DNA from: Propionibacteriaceae bacterium
Lineage (GTDB): Bacteria; Actinomycetota; Actinomycetes; Propionibacteriales; Propionibacteriaceae
Assembly: GCA_009782915.1 (NCBI GenBank)
Contig: WRIC01000019.1
Span: forward strand, 1-32,846
Length of the DNA: 32,846 nucleotides
Reading direction: 5' to 3'
Shown: positions 3,178 to 8,475 of the stretch, piece by piece
Layout of the letters: every line of letters starts with the position of its first letter
How positions within the stretch are numbered: the stretch's first letter is position 1
The notes under the pieces: generated by a model
The model's database searches: none
Told to the model about the DNA's origin: nothing
What the model saw: the letters and a program-made list of their open reading frames with translations, nothing else
Made by a program: the position numbers and the translations under genes

Positions 3178-3198
3178 CATGAGTCCGCTTCGCTCAGG
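3178..3198 (+). promoter_or_regulatory. HAIR-like HspR operator, distal copy
   Basis: The half-sites are CATGAGT and GCTCAGG, separated by 7 nt. The known HspR consensus is CTTGAGT-N7-ACTCAAG, so they match at 6/7 and 5/7 with the exact spacing. It lies upstream of the predicted dnaK -35 box and 38 bp from the proximal copy. Confidence 0.6.
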
Positions 3199-3203
3199 TT
3201 TAC

Positions 3204-3232
3204 TTGACTTGTAGACCTGAGTCCACTAGACT
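3204..3232 (+). promoter_or_regulatory. dnaK operon promoter (-35 and -10)
   Basis: A -35 box TTGACT (3204-3209) is separated by 17 nt from a -10 box TAGACT (3227-3232), which fits a housekeeping sigma factor. The start of transcription should fall near 3239, giving a leader of about 45 nt before dnaK. The -10 box lies inside the proximal HspR operator, so bound repressor would block polymerase. Confidence 0.6.
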
Positions 3233-3236
3233 CATG
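3216..3236 (+). promoter_or_regulatory. HAIR-like HspR operator, proximal copy
   Basis: The half-sites are CCTGAGT and ACTCATG with a 7-nt spacer, each 6/7 to the HspR consensus. It covers the -10 box of the dnaK promoter. Together with hspR as the last gene of the operon, this indicates the usual actinobacterial feedback loop in which HspR, helped by DnaK, represses its own operon. Confidence 0.75.
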
Positions 3237-3284: not shown

Positions 3285-5129
3285 ATGGCTCGTGCAGTAG
3301 GAATCGACCTTGGCACCACAAATTCTGTGGTCGCCGTACTCGAAGGTGGAGAACCCACCGTTATCGCCAACGCTGAAGGTGCACGTACGACACCGTCGGT
3401 TGTCGCATTCGCTAAAGGCGGCGAAGTGCTCGTCGGTGAGGTCGCCAAAAGGCAGGCTGTCACCAACGTTGACCGTACGATTCGCTCCGTCAAGCGCCAT
3501 ATGGGAACTAACTGGTCAGTCGACATCGACGACAAGAACTACAAGCCACAACAGATTTCCGCTTTCGTCCTCCAGAAACTCAAAAGAGACGCTGAAGCAC
3601 ACCTCGGTGAACCCGTCACCAATGCAGTGATCACCGTGCCAGCGTACTTCTCTGATGCTGAACGCCAAGCAACCAAAGAAGCCGGCGAAATCGCTGGGCT
3701 GACCGTGGACCGCATCATCAACGAACCCACCGCTGCAGCGCTGGCCTATGGACTCGACAAAGGTGACAAAGAACAAACCGTTCTCGTTTTCGACCTGGGT
3801 GGTGGAACCTTCGACGTCTCCCTGCTCGAAATCTCTGATGGTGTCTTCGAGGTGAAAGCAACCAAAGGTGACAACCGCCTGGGTGGTGACGACTGGGATC
3901 AGTGCGTCGTCGATTGGATGGTCAAAGAATTCAAGAACTCCAACGGCATCGACCTCTCCAAAGACAAGATGGCTCGCCAGCGCCTCCAAGAAGCCGCCGA
4001 GCGCGCCAAGATCGAACTCAGCTCCGCACAAGAAACAGACATCAACCTGCCGTACATCACTGCTGGAGAAAACGGTGCCCTCCACCTGGAAGCCAAACTC
4101 ACCAGGGCAGAATTCCAGCGCATGACCCAGGATCTGTTGGATCGATGCCGTGCACCCTTCAACGCGGTGATCTCTGATGCTAAAACCTCGGTGGGCTCCA
4201 TCGATGAAGTCATCCTCGTTGGTGGATCCACACGCATGCCCGCCGTGGTGGACTTGGTGAAAGAACTCGCTGGGAAAGACGCCCACAAGGGTGTTAACCC
4301 CGATGAGGTTGTTGCCCTGGGTGCAGCCCTCCAAGCTGGCGTACTCAAAGGGGAAGTCAAGGATGTTCTCCTGCTGGATGTGACCCCACTCAGCCTCGGC
4401 ATCGAAACCAAAGGTGGAGTGATGTCGCGCATCATCGAACGCAACACCACCATCCCCACCAAGCGATCCGAGATCTTCACCACCGCTGATGACAACCAGC
4501 CCTCGGTGATGATCCAGGTTTATCAAGGTGAGCGCGAATTCGCCCGAGACAACAAGTCGTTGGGGAACTTCGAATTGACTGGCATCATGCCCGCTCCACG
4601 TGGGGTGCCCCAGATTGAGGTTGGTTTCGACATTGATGCCAACGGAATCGTGCACGTATCAGCCAAAGACCTCGCCACAGGTAAAGAACAATCCATGACC
4701 GTCACCGGTGGATCAGCGCTCAACAAAGACGAGATCGACAAGATGATGGCCGAAGCTGAATCACACGCCGAAGAAGACAAGAAGCGCCGCGAATCAGTGG
4801 AAATGCGCAACACCGCTGATGGGCTCGCCTTCTCCACCGAGAAACTACTCGACGAGCATGATGAAATCCTCACCGATGATGTGAAGAATCCTGTCAAAGA
4901 AGCTGTCGCTGCGTTGAAGACAGCCCTCGAAGGGACAGACAACGACGACGAGGTGAAAGCTGCCATGGAAGACCTCAACACCAAGGCAGCCGCTATGGGT
5001 CAAGCAGTCTATGCCGCTGCTCAGGAGCGTGAAGCCGCTGCTGGGGCCGGTGAAGGTGGCGAGGAAACCGCTTCCGGTGATGATGATGTTGTTGATGCTG
5101 AGATCGTGGATGAAGACGACCAGAAATGA
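3285..5129 (+). CDS. dnaK: Hsp70 chaperone DnaK
   Basis: This 614-residue cytosolic ATP-dependent chaperone folds and protects proteins together with DnaJ and GrpE. The start is the ATG at 3285 ([14 protein letters not shown]), behind GGAGG at 3274-3278. The frame is open 27 codons further upstream, but those codons cover the promoter. Visible signatures are IDLGTTNS near the N-terminus, [10 protein letters not shown] near residue 169 and VGGSTRMP near 309. The substrate-binding domain follows, with a helical lid and an acidic tail ending [13 protein letters not shown], typical of actinobacterial DnaK. Its TGA overlaps the grpE ATG by 4 nt, so the two are translationally coupled. Regulation by HspR is expected from the two operators upstream. 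Confidence 0.98.
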
Positions 5130-5899
5130 GCGAGACCGATCACGATTGGGATGAGGAACTCAACAACCTCATCAGCGGGATGGGAGCATCAGATGATGCT
5201 CCCTCCAACACCGGTGAAACTAGTGACGTACCCGTGGAAGAGGTTGCCGAGCCCAAGACGCCCGAGCAACTCCTGGAAGAACGCACCGCCGACCTTCAAC
5301 GCCTCCAAGCCGAGTACGTCAACTACAAACGACGCGTCGACCGTGACCGTGATTTGGCGCGAAGGCGAGGAATCGAAGCCGTACTCGTCGACCTGTTGCC
5401 CATGCTCGACGGGATCGATGCGGCGCGTGCCCACGACGAACTCACCGGTGGGGCGTTGATGCTGGCCGAAGAAGTAGCCAAAGTGGCCACTAAATATGGC
5501 CTCGAAGGGTTCGGAGCTGAAGGCGACGAATTCGATCCACACATCCATGAAGCGCTCATGCACATGGACAAGCCAGGGTACGCGGTCGACTCGGTTGCTG
5601 AAATCTTTCAGCGCGGGTACCGCATCGGCGACAGGATCGTACGCCCTGCGCGAGTCGGTGTTGCGAGCGCTGACGACAGCCTTGCCGCCCCAGACAAGAC
5701 CGACACCCCAACAGGTGAGGATTCGACAGAAAGGAAACCAGAGATGACCAAGAAATGTTGCTGCTGCGAGAACTGCGACTGCTGTTACAAAGACTCCGAA
5801 TGCTGTGAGAGCCCCGACAAATGTGTCGAATGTACCTGCGAATGTGCCGACTGTGAGCGCTGTCGCAAGAAAGACTGCTGCGGAGAATGCGGCTCATAG
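5126..5899 (+). CDS. grpE: GrpE nucleotide exchange factor with an extra cysteine-rich C-terminal tail
   Basis: The frame encodes 257 residues. Residues 1-50 are an acidic disordered leader, about 48-85 is the long dimerisation helix, and about 85-180 is the rest of GrpE, ending in the family's usual [10 protein letters not shown]. GrpE releases ADP from DnaK. Normal family members stop here. In this gene the frame continues through a polar linker (about 181-206) into a 51-residue tail starting MTKKCCCC that has 18 cysteines, at tail positions 5-8, 11, 13, 14, 20, 21, 27, 30, 32, 34, 37, 40, 45, 46 and 49. There is no stop or frameshift between the two parts. The tail resembles a small metallothionein or zinc-binding protein. 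An internal ATG with its own ribosome-binding site begins the tail, so it may also be made alone. Confidence 0.93.
5744..5899 (+). other. Possible internally initiated cysteine-rich mini-protein inside grpE
   Basis: An in-frame ATG at 5744 (codon 207 of grpE) is preceded at a spacing of 8 nt by AAAGGA (5730-5735). Starting there would give a 51-residue protein with 18 Cys, 9 Lys or Arg, and many Asp and Glu. It contains CxC, CC and CxxC patterns of the type that bind zinc, copper or cadmium in metallothioneins. There is no similarity to the GrpE fold. It could be an independent gene whose upstream stop was lost, a fusion domain only, or both. Confidence 0.45.
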
Positions 5900-5937: not shown

Positions 5938-7065
5938 ATGAGCCAAAAAGACTGGCTAGAGAAAGACTATTACGCTGTCCTGGGCGTGAACAAAGACGCC
6001 ACCGACGACCAGATTAAAAAGGCTTTTCGCAAACTAGCGCGGAAATACCACCCCGATCAAAACAAAGACTCCAGCGCCGAAAAAAAATTCAAAGAAGTCA
6101 CTGAAGCCAACGATATTCTCTCCGATCCCAAACAGAGGGCAGAATACGACCAGGCTCGATCCCTGTTCGGCTCAGGATTCCGCTTCCCCGGATCAGGTCG
6201 CGGGCAAGGGTCCACCATGGGGTTCGAAGACATCTTCGCTTCGGGAGGGTCAGGGCTCGGGGACATCCTGGGAGGATTCTTTGGCGGTGGAGGAGGGCAA
6301 AACCCGCGGGCACCGCGTCGAGGAAGCGACGTCGAGACCGAAGTAAAAATCGGTTTCAAAGACGCCGCCCAAGGAACCATGGTGTCACTGCGGCTCAGCT
6401 CAGAAACCGCCTGCGACTCCTGCCGAGGAACCGGCGCGCGCGCAGGGACCACACCGAAAGCCTGCCCATCATGCCACGGCTCAGGAATGACCGCCCGCCA
6501 ATCCGGGGGCTTCGCTGTTTCCGAACCCTGTGGACTGTGCCACGGTCGCGGACTCACCATTGATGACCCCTGCCCCCAGTGCTCCGGGACCGGGCAAGGA
6601 CGATCCAACCGAACTATTCAAGTACGCATCCCCGCCGGAGTGAACGACCATCAGCGTATTCGAATCAAAGGAAAAGGCGCGCCCTCGCCTGGGGGAGGTG
6701 TGGCCGGTGACCTCTATGTCGTGGTGCACGTCAACCCCGATCCCCTCTTCACCCGCCAAGGCGACCACCTCGCCATCACCGTACCCGTCACCTATGTGGA
6801 AGCAGCACTCGGCGCGGAAATCGGCGTACCCACCCTCGATGGAGGCCAAGTACGACTCAAAATCCCCGCGGGAACCAAAACCGGGCGAACATTTAGGGCC
6901 AAAGGCAAAGGAATCCAACTCAAGAATGGTTCAACCGATCTGCTCGTGACCGTACAAGTTCAAGTCCCTGAACACCTGTCGGTGGCCGCCCAGGAAGCTC
7001 TGCGGGCCTACGAAGCCGTCGCCGGGGAACCCAATCCGAGGGCGGACCTGAGAGCAGGTGAGTGA
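5938..7065 (+). CDS. dnaJ: Hsp40 co-chaperone DnaJ
   Basis: This 375-residue protein delivers substrates to DnaK and stimulates its ATPase. The J domain (about 8-75) contains the essential HPD at 38-40. A Gly/Phe-rich region follows (about 80-125). Next come four CxxCxGxG-type zinc-binding repeats starting near Cys159 ([32 protein letters not shown]), then the C-terminal substrate-binding domains. This is a complete type I DnaJ. It lies 38 nt after grpE behind an ideal ribosome-binding site. Its stop overlaps the hspR start. Confidence 0.97.
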
Positions 7066-7475
7066 TGGCAGCATCAAAAAACCGGCTCCCACTCAAATTT
7101 GATACCCATGCGCCCTTGTTTCTCATCTCCACCGCTGCACGCCTAGCGGGGATGCACCCCCAAACCCTGCGCACCTATGATCGCATGGGGCTGGTGACCC
7201 CCCAGCGAACCGCTGGTCGAGGGCGACGCTATTCTATTGCTGACGTCGAACGGCTCCGATTGATTCACTATTTAACCCAAGATGAGGGCGTGAACCTCGT
7301 GGGTGTTCGCCAAATCCTGGACCTGCAATCGCAAGTGGATGCCCTCCAAGAAGAAGTAGTGCAACTCACCGAGCAGCTCCACCAGGCACGAACCACCACC
7401 CCCCGGTCGCGCCTATTCACCGCCTCCGCCGACGAGGTGTGGGTAAGAACCACCTCCCGGGCCATACTCCCGTGA
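7062..7475 (+). CDS. hspR: MerR-family heat-shock repressor HspR
   Basis: The product is 137 residues from a GTG at 7062 that overlaps the dnaJ TGA; an ATG at 7065 is the alternative. The winged helix-turn-helix spans about residues 20-85 ([20 protein letters not shown], then [15 protein letters not shown]). A C-terminal coiled coil follows ([19 protein letters not shown]). HspR represses the operon in which it is encoded, by binding HAIR inverted repeats. Two such repeats lie upstream of dnaK in this window. The gene is the last of the operon and is followed by a repeat element that could end transcription. Confidence 0.95.
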
Positions 7476-7510
7476 CAATTGTCCGCAGTCCGCGGAGCAC
7501 ACTCCCCACC

Positions 7511-7594
7511 GTCATTCTGCGCGAAGTCGCAGAATCCAGACTCCACAGTCGAACAACTGGGTAGTCTGGACCCTGCGACTTCGCGCAGGGTGAC
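7511..7594 (+). repeat. REP/BIME-like double-hairpin element, copy 1
   Basis: This is an 84-bp imperfect palindrome made of two inward-facing hairpins. The left stem is ATTCTGCG/CGCAGAAT with loop CGAAGT, and the right stem is ACCCTGCG/CGCAGGGT with loop ACTTCG. Between them is a CCAGACT...AGTCTGG pair. The two hairpins differ by TT versus CC at the same places. It lies between the convergent ends of hspR and the deaminase gene, so it may act as a two-way terminator. Confidence 0.9.
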
Positions 7595-7739
7595 AGAGGA
7601 TAAGAGTTACTGGGTGATGGAGGATAGCGGTTACTGGGTGACGGTGGATAGCGGTTACTGGGTGACGGTGGATAGGAGTCACTGGGTGTCGGAGGATAGG
7701 AGTCACTGGGTGACGGGGGATAGCAGTTATTGAGTGACA
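7588..7739 (+). repeat. Tandem array with an exact 24-bp period derived from the REP end
   Basis: The motif GGGTGAC (with small variants) recurs at 7588, 7612, 7636, 7660, 7684, 7708 and 7732, always 24 bp apart. It follows the right end of repeat copy 1 and runs into the last codons of the dCMP deaminase gene on the other strand. Confidence 0.88.
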
Positions 7740-8188: not shown

Positions 8189-8210
8189 CGTTACTCCTTA
8201 GAATCTTGAC

Positions 8211-8320
8211 TGGGTTCCCATTGTGTCGCCCTGGGTTCCTGCTGAGTGGTCCTGGGTTCCTGTTGTGTCGCCCTGGGTTCCTGCTGAGTGGTCCTGGGTT
8301 CCTGTTGTGTCGCCCTGTGG
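8211..8320 (+). repeat. Tandem array with a 21-bp period
   Basis: The motif TGGGTTCC begins at 8211, 8232, 8253, 8274 and 8295, with a decayed copy (TGTGG) at 8316, exactly 21 bp apart. Two unit types alternate (one ending GCTGAGTGGTCC, the other GTTGTGTCGCCC), so a 42-bp dimer was also duplicated. It lies just upstream of the deaminase start, beginning about 23 bp before its ATG on the minus strand. It therefore occupies that gene's promoter region. Confidence 0.88.
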
Positions 8321-8350
8321 TCTCAATCCGTCTCCTTGCGCAACCCCATG

Positions 8351-8475
8351 CCGTCTCCCTGCGCGAAGTCGCAGGGTCCACACTAGTAGCTGGTCAATGG
8401 ATTCTGCGACTGACGCGCAGAAAGACGGGAAAGGGATGCGCAGAAATTCAGGGAAAGGAGTTGCAGAAAGACGGG
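8351..8475 (-). repeat. REP/BIME-like element copy 2 with decayed tail, reverse orientation
   Basis: The core at 8351-8429 is the same double hairpin in the opposite orientation: a CCCTGCG stem first, then an ATTCTGCG stem with a damaged loop. The centre has diverged. After it, GCAGAAA-type end fragments recur about every 23 bp to about 8475. It abuts the stop of the magnesium transporter gene and is a candidate terminator for it. The rest of the 290-bp gap between genes is taken up by this element and the 21-bp array. Confidence 0.8.

Follow-up and report, generated by a model that had tools for sequence, protein, structure and literature searches.

In the broad sense, metallothionein-like proteins are short, contain about 20–35% cysteine in CC, CxC and CxxC motifs, and use clusters of thiolates to coordinate several d10 metal ions. 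The bacterial SmtA/BmtA proteins and the mycobacterial MymT are small, very rich in cysteine and marked by CC, CxC and CxxC spacing. Genes of SmtA-type bacterial metallothioneins adjoin the gene of a metal-dependent repressor, in the smtA-smtB layout, according to the available text of PMC7387436. Among GrpE-type proteins, GrpEL2 is presented in the available text of PMC12987570 as a proposed redox-sensing exchange factor of vertebrates. No report of a Cys-rich tail on GrpE was found among the listed titles and abstract openings of the open-licence literature.

The stretch of DNA analysed here, which we call the window, is the whole of a 32,846-nt contig (C19) of a Propionibacteriaceae bacterium, whose draft genome has 1.64 Mb in 33 contigs and is estimated to be 93.5% complete and 0.11% contaminated. 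The list of open reading frames (ORFs) of the window places grpE at positions 5126-5899 of the plus strand, open for 257 aa, and confirms that in this assembly GrpE and a cysteine-rich module are fused in frame. An earlier reading of the sequence alone had reported a 51-residue, 18-Cys tail in frame on a GrpE whose fold ends normally before it, and both statements were borne out. The ORF stays open from the Cys-free GrpE part (5126..5665, plus strand, delimited by domain match and Cys count) through an acidic/polar linker (5666..5743, plus strand) into the module (5744..5896, plus strand; residues 207-257), which begins with its own ATG at 5744 and is followed by the stop at 5897-5899. That reading had let the feature start at 5666, a position that takes in the whole tail but is the start of the linker, not of the module. 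The GrpE domain is intact, since PF01025 matches residues 49-180 in Pfam with an E value of 1.5e-29 and near full length (103.2 bits, the cut-off being 25.8, over positions 26-164 of the 165 in the profile), and the normal end segment of GrpE begins at residue 171, ahead of the linker. The flanking dnaK and dnaJ genes likewise identify the gene as grpE, and a search of the whole genome returned the fused ORF as its single GrpE match. All 18 cysteines of the fused protein lie inside the 51-residue module, spaced as CC, CxC and CxxC and including a CCCC run. The runner-up among the stop-free 51-aa stretches of the window, in all six frames, has 7 cysteines, and the richest 51-aa stretch in 60 first-order Markov windows has 10.

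The module had also been placed inside a chaperone operon, and the gene order agrees. The upstream gene is dnaK (3285..5129, plus strand; HSP70, PF00012, E value 2.8e-243), whose TGA overlaps the grpE ATG in an ATGA junction. The module is followed by dnaJ (5938..7065, plus strand), identified by domain search and gene order as a J protein with a CXXCXGXG domain, and by a MerR-family regulator in the hspR position (7062..7475, plus strand), recognized by domain search, which we take to be HspR from its family and the gene order. Upstream of dnaK there are two HAIR-like inverted repeats on the plus strand, one at 3178..3198 with 3 mismatches and one at 3216..3236, beginning 38 bp after the first, with 2 mismatches to what we assumed to be the consensus. 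The closest relative, described below, has two such sites before dnaK with the same 38-bp spacing (L048:3402-3422 and L048:3440-3460). A count as high as that of the window (4 matches) was reached in 4 of 100 shuffles, and one as high as that of the relative's locus (3 matches) in 10 of 200. The counts are thus modest evidence for such sites, and the position shared by both species is the stronger point. Downstream of the operon, the ORF list shows repetitive translations at around 7.5-8.4 kb (7479-7733 and 8206-8381), in which units such as 'HRHPVT' and 'GFLLSGPGFLLCRP' recur and which suggest short intergenic DNA repeats.

The closest relative among the genomes searched is Propionibacteriaceae bacterium Nt197P3bin38 (G006, which we equate with contig WRIJ01000004.1), a metagenome-assembled genome (MAG) from a termite gut. 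The available text of PMC7024585, a study of 589 MAGs obtained by Illumina sequencing, gives Nt197 as the humus-feeding termite Neocapritermes taracua. Its GrpE is 75% identical to that of the window, and a module with 78% identity over 46 aa occupies the same position. There, however, the module is a separate gene of 69 aa, which shares an ATGA with the grpE stop at its start and follows a GrpE C-terminus that reads ...STEINDEGNQE*. The 69-aa gene is followed by dnaJ and then by the regulator gene. A tree of GrpE and DnaJ joined the two genomes as a sister pair with support of 100/98, one of the 3 well-supported branches among its 11 inner branches; 21 genomes were considered for this tree, and 7 lacking a GrpE or DnaJ extractable by motif search were left out, leaving 14 rows. 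In another genome of the genus (G014, locus L030) grpE ends in GGDQE, similar to the GNQE end of the sister, and runs directly into an overlap with the start of dnaJ; in the sister, the Cys gene sits between ends of this kind.

Searches with the module indicated a very narrow distribution. Within the genus it occurs in 2 of 19 genomes, the window and its sister. In the family, 22 of the 198 genomes matched at E values up to 0.1, but only these two gave strong scores and the next match had an E value of 0.0037. Among the genomes sampled at higher ranks, E values up to 0.01 were obtained in 2 of 391 for the order (the window and one at 0.006), 3 of 394 for the class (the window and two at 0.004 and 0.008) and 1 of 396 for the phylum, the window itself; these three samples overlap and include the window genome, and the sister is absent from them, presumably because it was not drawn. 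A convincing module beyond the pair was therefore found in none of the 19 genus, 198 family and 391, 394 and 396 sampled genomes, with the proviso that the low-complexity filter of BLAST may weaken a Cys-rich query and divergent members may be missed. A scan of the GTDB genome collection, leaving out the window genome, found 149 stretches that fit the pattern, of which one was confirmed, the sister locus; since the scan used two short peptide patterns, divergent members may escape it as well. No confirmed relative of the module was found among viral contigs (55 pattern matches), plasmids or phages.

The weaker matches were set aside. Those with E values from 0.004 to 10 in the module searches were taken as chance, mainly for their low scores, among them three in the genus (G011, E value 0.05; G001, E value 0.5; G016, E value 0.008); the frame of the G016 match is a 39-aa stretch interrupted by stops and lacking the Cys pattern. 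We read 24 weak-match loci and, in addition, L062 from the order sample, a set that excludes L065, L066 and the family matches without a locus, and found no Cys-dense small protein in the frames that were read; some minus-strand loci among the 24 were read in the wrong frame. The E value exceeded 0.01 in 22 of the 24, the lower two being L004, from the same genus (0.008), and L049 (0.0037), and several were stop-broken or rich in Arg and Ser.

The gap between grpE and dnaJ was then compared across relatives. A GrpE search of 57 related genomes gave a match in 53, and the best 30 of these were taken as loci. Apart from the window and its sister, all 28 related grpE loci that were read (15 from the genus and 13 from the family or order) lack the module ahead of dnaJ, whether fused or separate. 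In 27 of them, 20-170 nt separate the grpE stop from the DYY/DFY motif of DnaJ (longest in L038), and in G014 the two genes overlap. The tail stretch of GrpE contains no cysteine in 26 of these 27 loci and one in G004, and that of G014 contains none. Two other genomes of the genus (G016 and G018) gave no grpE match; they are 69% and 64% complete. The same comparison bears on the idea that the module stores zinc and donates it to DnaJ when heat shock calls for mass production of that protein. DnaJ carries a CXXCXGXG domain, which binds zinc, and the module directly precedes dnaJ in both species. The 28 loci in which dnaJ follows grpE with no module in between nevertheless argue that DnaJ is generally independent of it, and we regard a zinc donor as a poor prospect, with roughly one chance in its favour for many against.

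The C-termini of GrpE in the genus (L016-L029) range from 16 to 150 residues and are mostly rich in Ala, Asp, Ser and Pro, and nearly free of Cys. Being so variable in length and almost without Cys, they suggest that the C-terminus of GrpE tolerates additions. They also bear on the main idea of the sequence-only reading, in which the tail would sense metals or thiols and directly alter GrpE dimerisation or nucleotide exchange on DnaK. GrpE is dimeric, and two 18-Cys tails would sit together on the dimer. A redox-responsive homologue has been reported, human GrpEL2 with its Cys87, but the available text of PMC12987570 locates this cysteine in the helical stalk and not in a tail. The sister module is unattached to GrpE, so the conserved role of the module would need no fusion, and the nearly Cys-free tails of the genus speak against a sensor too. 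Metal or redox control of GrpE by the tail is thus possible, but as an account of the module we consider the sensor improbable.

The origin of the fusion can be read from the DNA alignment of the two sisters. Directly before the junction the window lacks 11 nt relative to the sister: it reads TCGACAGA|AAGGAAACCAGAGATG, and the sister TCGACAGA|GATAAACGACG|AAGGGAACCAAGAATG. A second length difference, of 3 nt, follows the ATG and preserves the frame. In the +1 frame of the window the linker ends in ...KGNQR*, the counterpart of the grpE end ...EGNQE* of the sister, and it looks as if the old grpE stop were still there, one frame away. The 11-nt difference puts the window grpE outside the frame of this GNQR* stop and into the frame of the small gene. 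Since the sister and the 28 other loci have GrpE ends without a fused module, it is simplest to suppose that the split form came first and gave rise to the fusion, an order drawn from the grpE ends, the small gene itself having no outgroup. Outside the junction the linker is highly diverged, and a different history of insertions and deletions is possible.

The stop kept one frame away, matching the intact one of the sister, is also what would be expected if the fusion were an assembly or sequencing error and the true genome had separate genes for GrpE and the module, as the sister does. A single draft MAG assembly shows the fusion, and the divergence of the linker leaves room for a hidden 1-nt error. 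The best alignment, on the other hand, requires a difference of 11 nt, which is not a typical single-base slip. Moreover, 39 kb of the sister contig supplied 61 ORFs no shorter than 120 aa. Of these, 30 match the window (at about 3.3-23.7 kb) with at least 45% identity, each in one piece and one frame, revealing no other clear frame break; we consider 18 of the 30 to be genuine genes and the others shadow frames. Some matches are incomplete: that of GrpE spans 187 of 214 residues, and in a few further cases an end is missing. An error at this point is therefore rather unlikely. The retained stop would equally suit a ribosome that slips by +1 in the linker, so that most GrpE would end at the old TGA and the fusion would be a minor product; the reading in frame 0 is wholly open, and on general grounds only we rate such slippage as very improbable indeed.

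Several lines of evidence indicate that the module is a coding sequence. Over 45 aligned codons the window and the sister differ at 29 nucleotides (9, 2 and 18 at the first, second and third codon positions) and at 9 amino acids, and none of 20,000 neutral simulations gave so few amino acid differences. The two modules have 16 Cys positions in common and one unique to each, so that 16 of the 17 window cysteines within the aligned codons are kept in the sister; at least 16 were kept in 5 of the 20,000 simulations. Six Cys codons switch synonymously between TGC and TGT. Estimates of dN/dS were 0.07 by NG86 (dS 1.9, near saturation) and 0.79 by YN00 (dS 0.30), so the ratio is unreliable at 45 codons, whereas conservation of the Cys pattern is clear. 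Occurrence in the sister, the 16 shared Cys positions and the six TGC/TGT switches make the module very probably coding.

The module also appears to have its own start. The Shine-Dalgarno-like sequence before the ATG at 5744, AGAAAGGA, which lies in the linker, gives a duplex of -10.3 kcal/mol, among the best 1.5% of the 520 plus-strand ATGs of the window, compared with -9.5 kcal/mol for the small gene of the sister and -3.1 kcal/mol for the window grpE's own start, all calculated with the anti-Shine-Dalgarno letters that we presume to apply. The ATG of the small gene and its strong Shine-Dalgarno sequence are thus kept in both species. Their retention in the window makes internal initiation at 5744 likely, and a free module would then be made beside the fusion.

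No described family accounts for the module. Pfam, PF02069 included, gave no match at E values up to 1 for the window module and up to 0.001 for that of the sister, NCBIfam gave none in either species, and PDB sequences did not match a profile built from the two modules. None of the 19 genus genomes matched PF02069, and the control, Synechococcus elongatus, was positive. A search of the tail against the prokaryotic metallothionein family of Pfam, a check of the kind that the sequence-only reading had proposed, thus came back negative. The module does fit the broad compositional definition of metallothionein-like proteins, with 18 cysteines in 51 residues at positions conserved in the sister. 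It therefore looks like a metallothionein-like protein outside the described prokaryotic family PF02069, and its composition suggests that it probably binds metal.

The explanation that we favour, and consider somewhat better than even, is that a metallothionein-like small gene of the heat-shock operon was joined to GrpE in a single lineage and acts as a co-induced metal and thiol buffer. Two sister species within one Propionibacteriaceae genus carry this small gene, located after grpE and before dnaJ. In the sister it overlaps grpE in an ATGA arrangement, the layout of translational coupling, and may well be coupled in this way. In the lineage of the window, a net loss of 11 nt before the junction would have bypassed the grpE stop, and the ORF of the window now gives GrpE a C-terminal tail that consists of the linker and the module; free module would probably be made there too, from its own ATG and Shine-Dalgarno sequence. 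Heat or other protein damage would induce the operon, and the module would be produced in step with GrpE. Its thiolate clusters would most likely bind soft metals (Zn, Cu, Cd), and it would also scavenge oxidants, the metals buffered being those released from damaged proteins. The GrpE core would function as usual, with the tail held on a flexible linker.

Earlier claims are affected by this comparison to different degrees. A metal- or redox-sensing tail on GrpE had been proposed, to be abandoned if all relatives had two separate ORFs here. The fusion stands in the assembly, but the findings come close to that situation: the module is a separate ORF in its only other carrier, which suggests that it is primarily a small separate gene of the operon. 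The alternative named was a metallothionein of the heat-shock response, expressed together with the chaperones, and the separate small gene in the operon of the sister makes it the favoured first reading. In a bolder version, GrpE captured a metallothionein and one gene now has two products: a free heat-shock metallothionein, started at an internal ribosome site, and a fusion of GrpE with metallothionein, by which a metal/thiol cluster would reach the DnaK machine beside the zinc-finger protein DnaJ. We put this version forward tentatively and think it unlikely, though not negligible. If true, it would couple the cycling of the chaperones, or the metallation of DnaJ, to the metal or redox state.

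The more general discovery would be a metallothionein-like gene in a heat-shock operon, with the fusion as a lineage-specific variant of the overlapping two-gene state. The best-known bacterial metallothioneins stand alone under a metal-dependent repressor, whereas here the gene lies within a chaperone operon and, in one of the two species, is part of the only GrpE found. The split and fused sisters allow a gene fusion through a frame-changing length difference to be traced, and with this pair one could test whether a metal/thiol buffer made alongside it is of use to the Hsp70 system.

Compared with the known systems, the module resembles SmtA/BmtA (PF02069) and the mycobacterial MymT in being equally small and very high in Cys with CC, CxC and CxxC spacing, and differs from them in its CCCC run and in having no PF02069 match. 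Unlike the smtA-smtB arrangement, its operon neighbours are dnaK, dnaJ and a MerR-family gene, with no smtB-like regulator among them. The likeness to GrpEL2 is that of a GrpE-type protein with proposed thiol chemistry; according to the available text of PMC12987570, that chemistry involves a single stalk Cys and a disulfide between protomers, whereas the GrpE of the window has a Cys-rich tail. The nearest counterpart is the PF01025 GrpE of the actinobacterial dnaK-grpE-dnaJ-hspR operon, with which the window shares the complete domain, the gene order, candidate HAIR-like sites and a single match in the genome, and to which it adds a C-terminal module of 51 aa with 18 cysteines.
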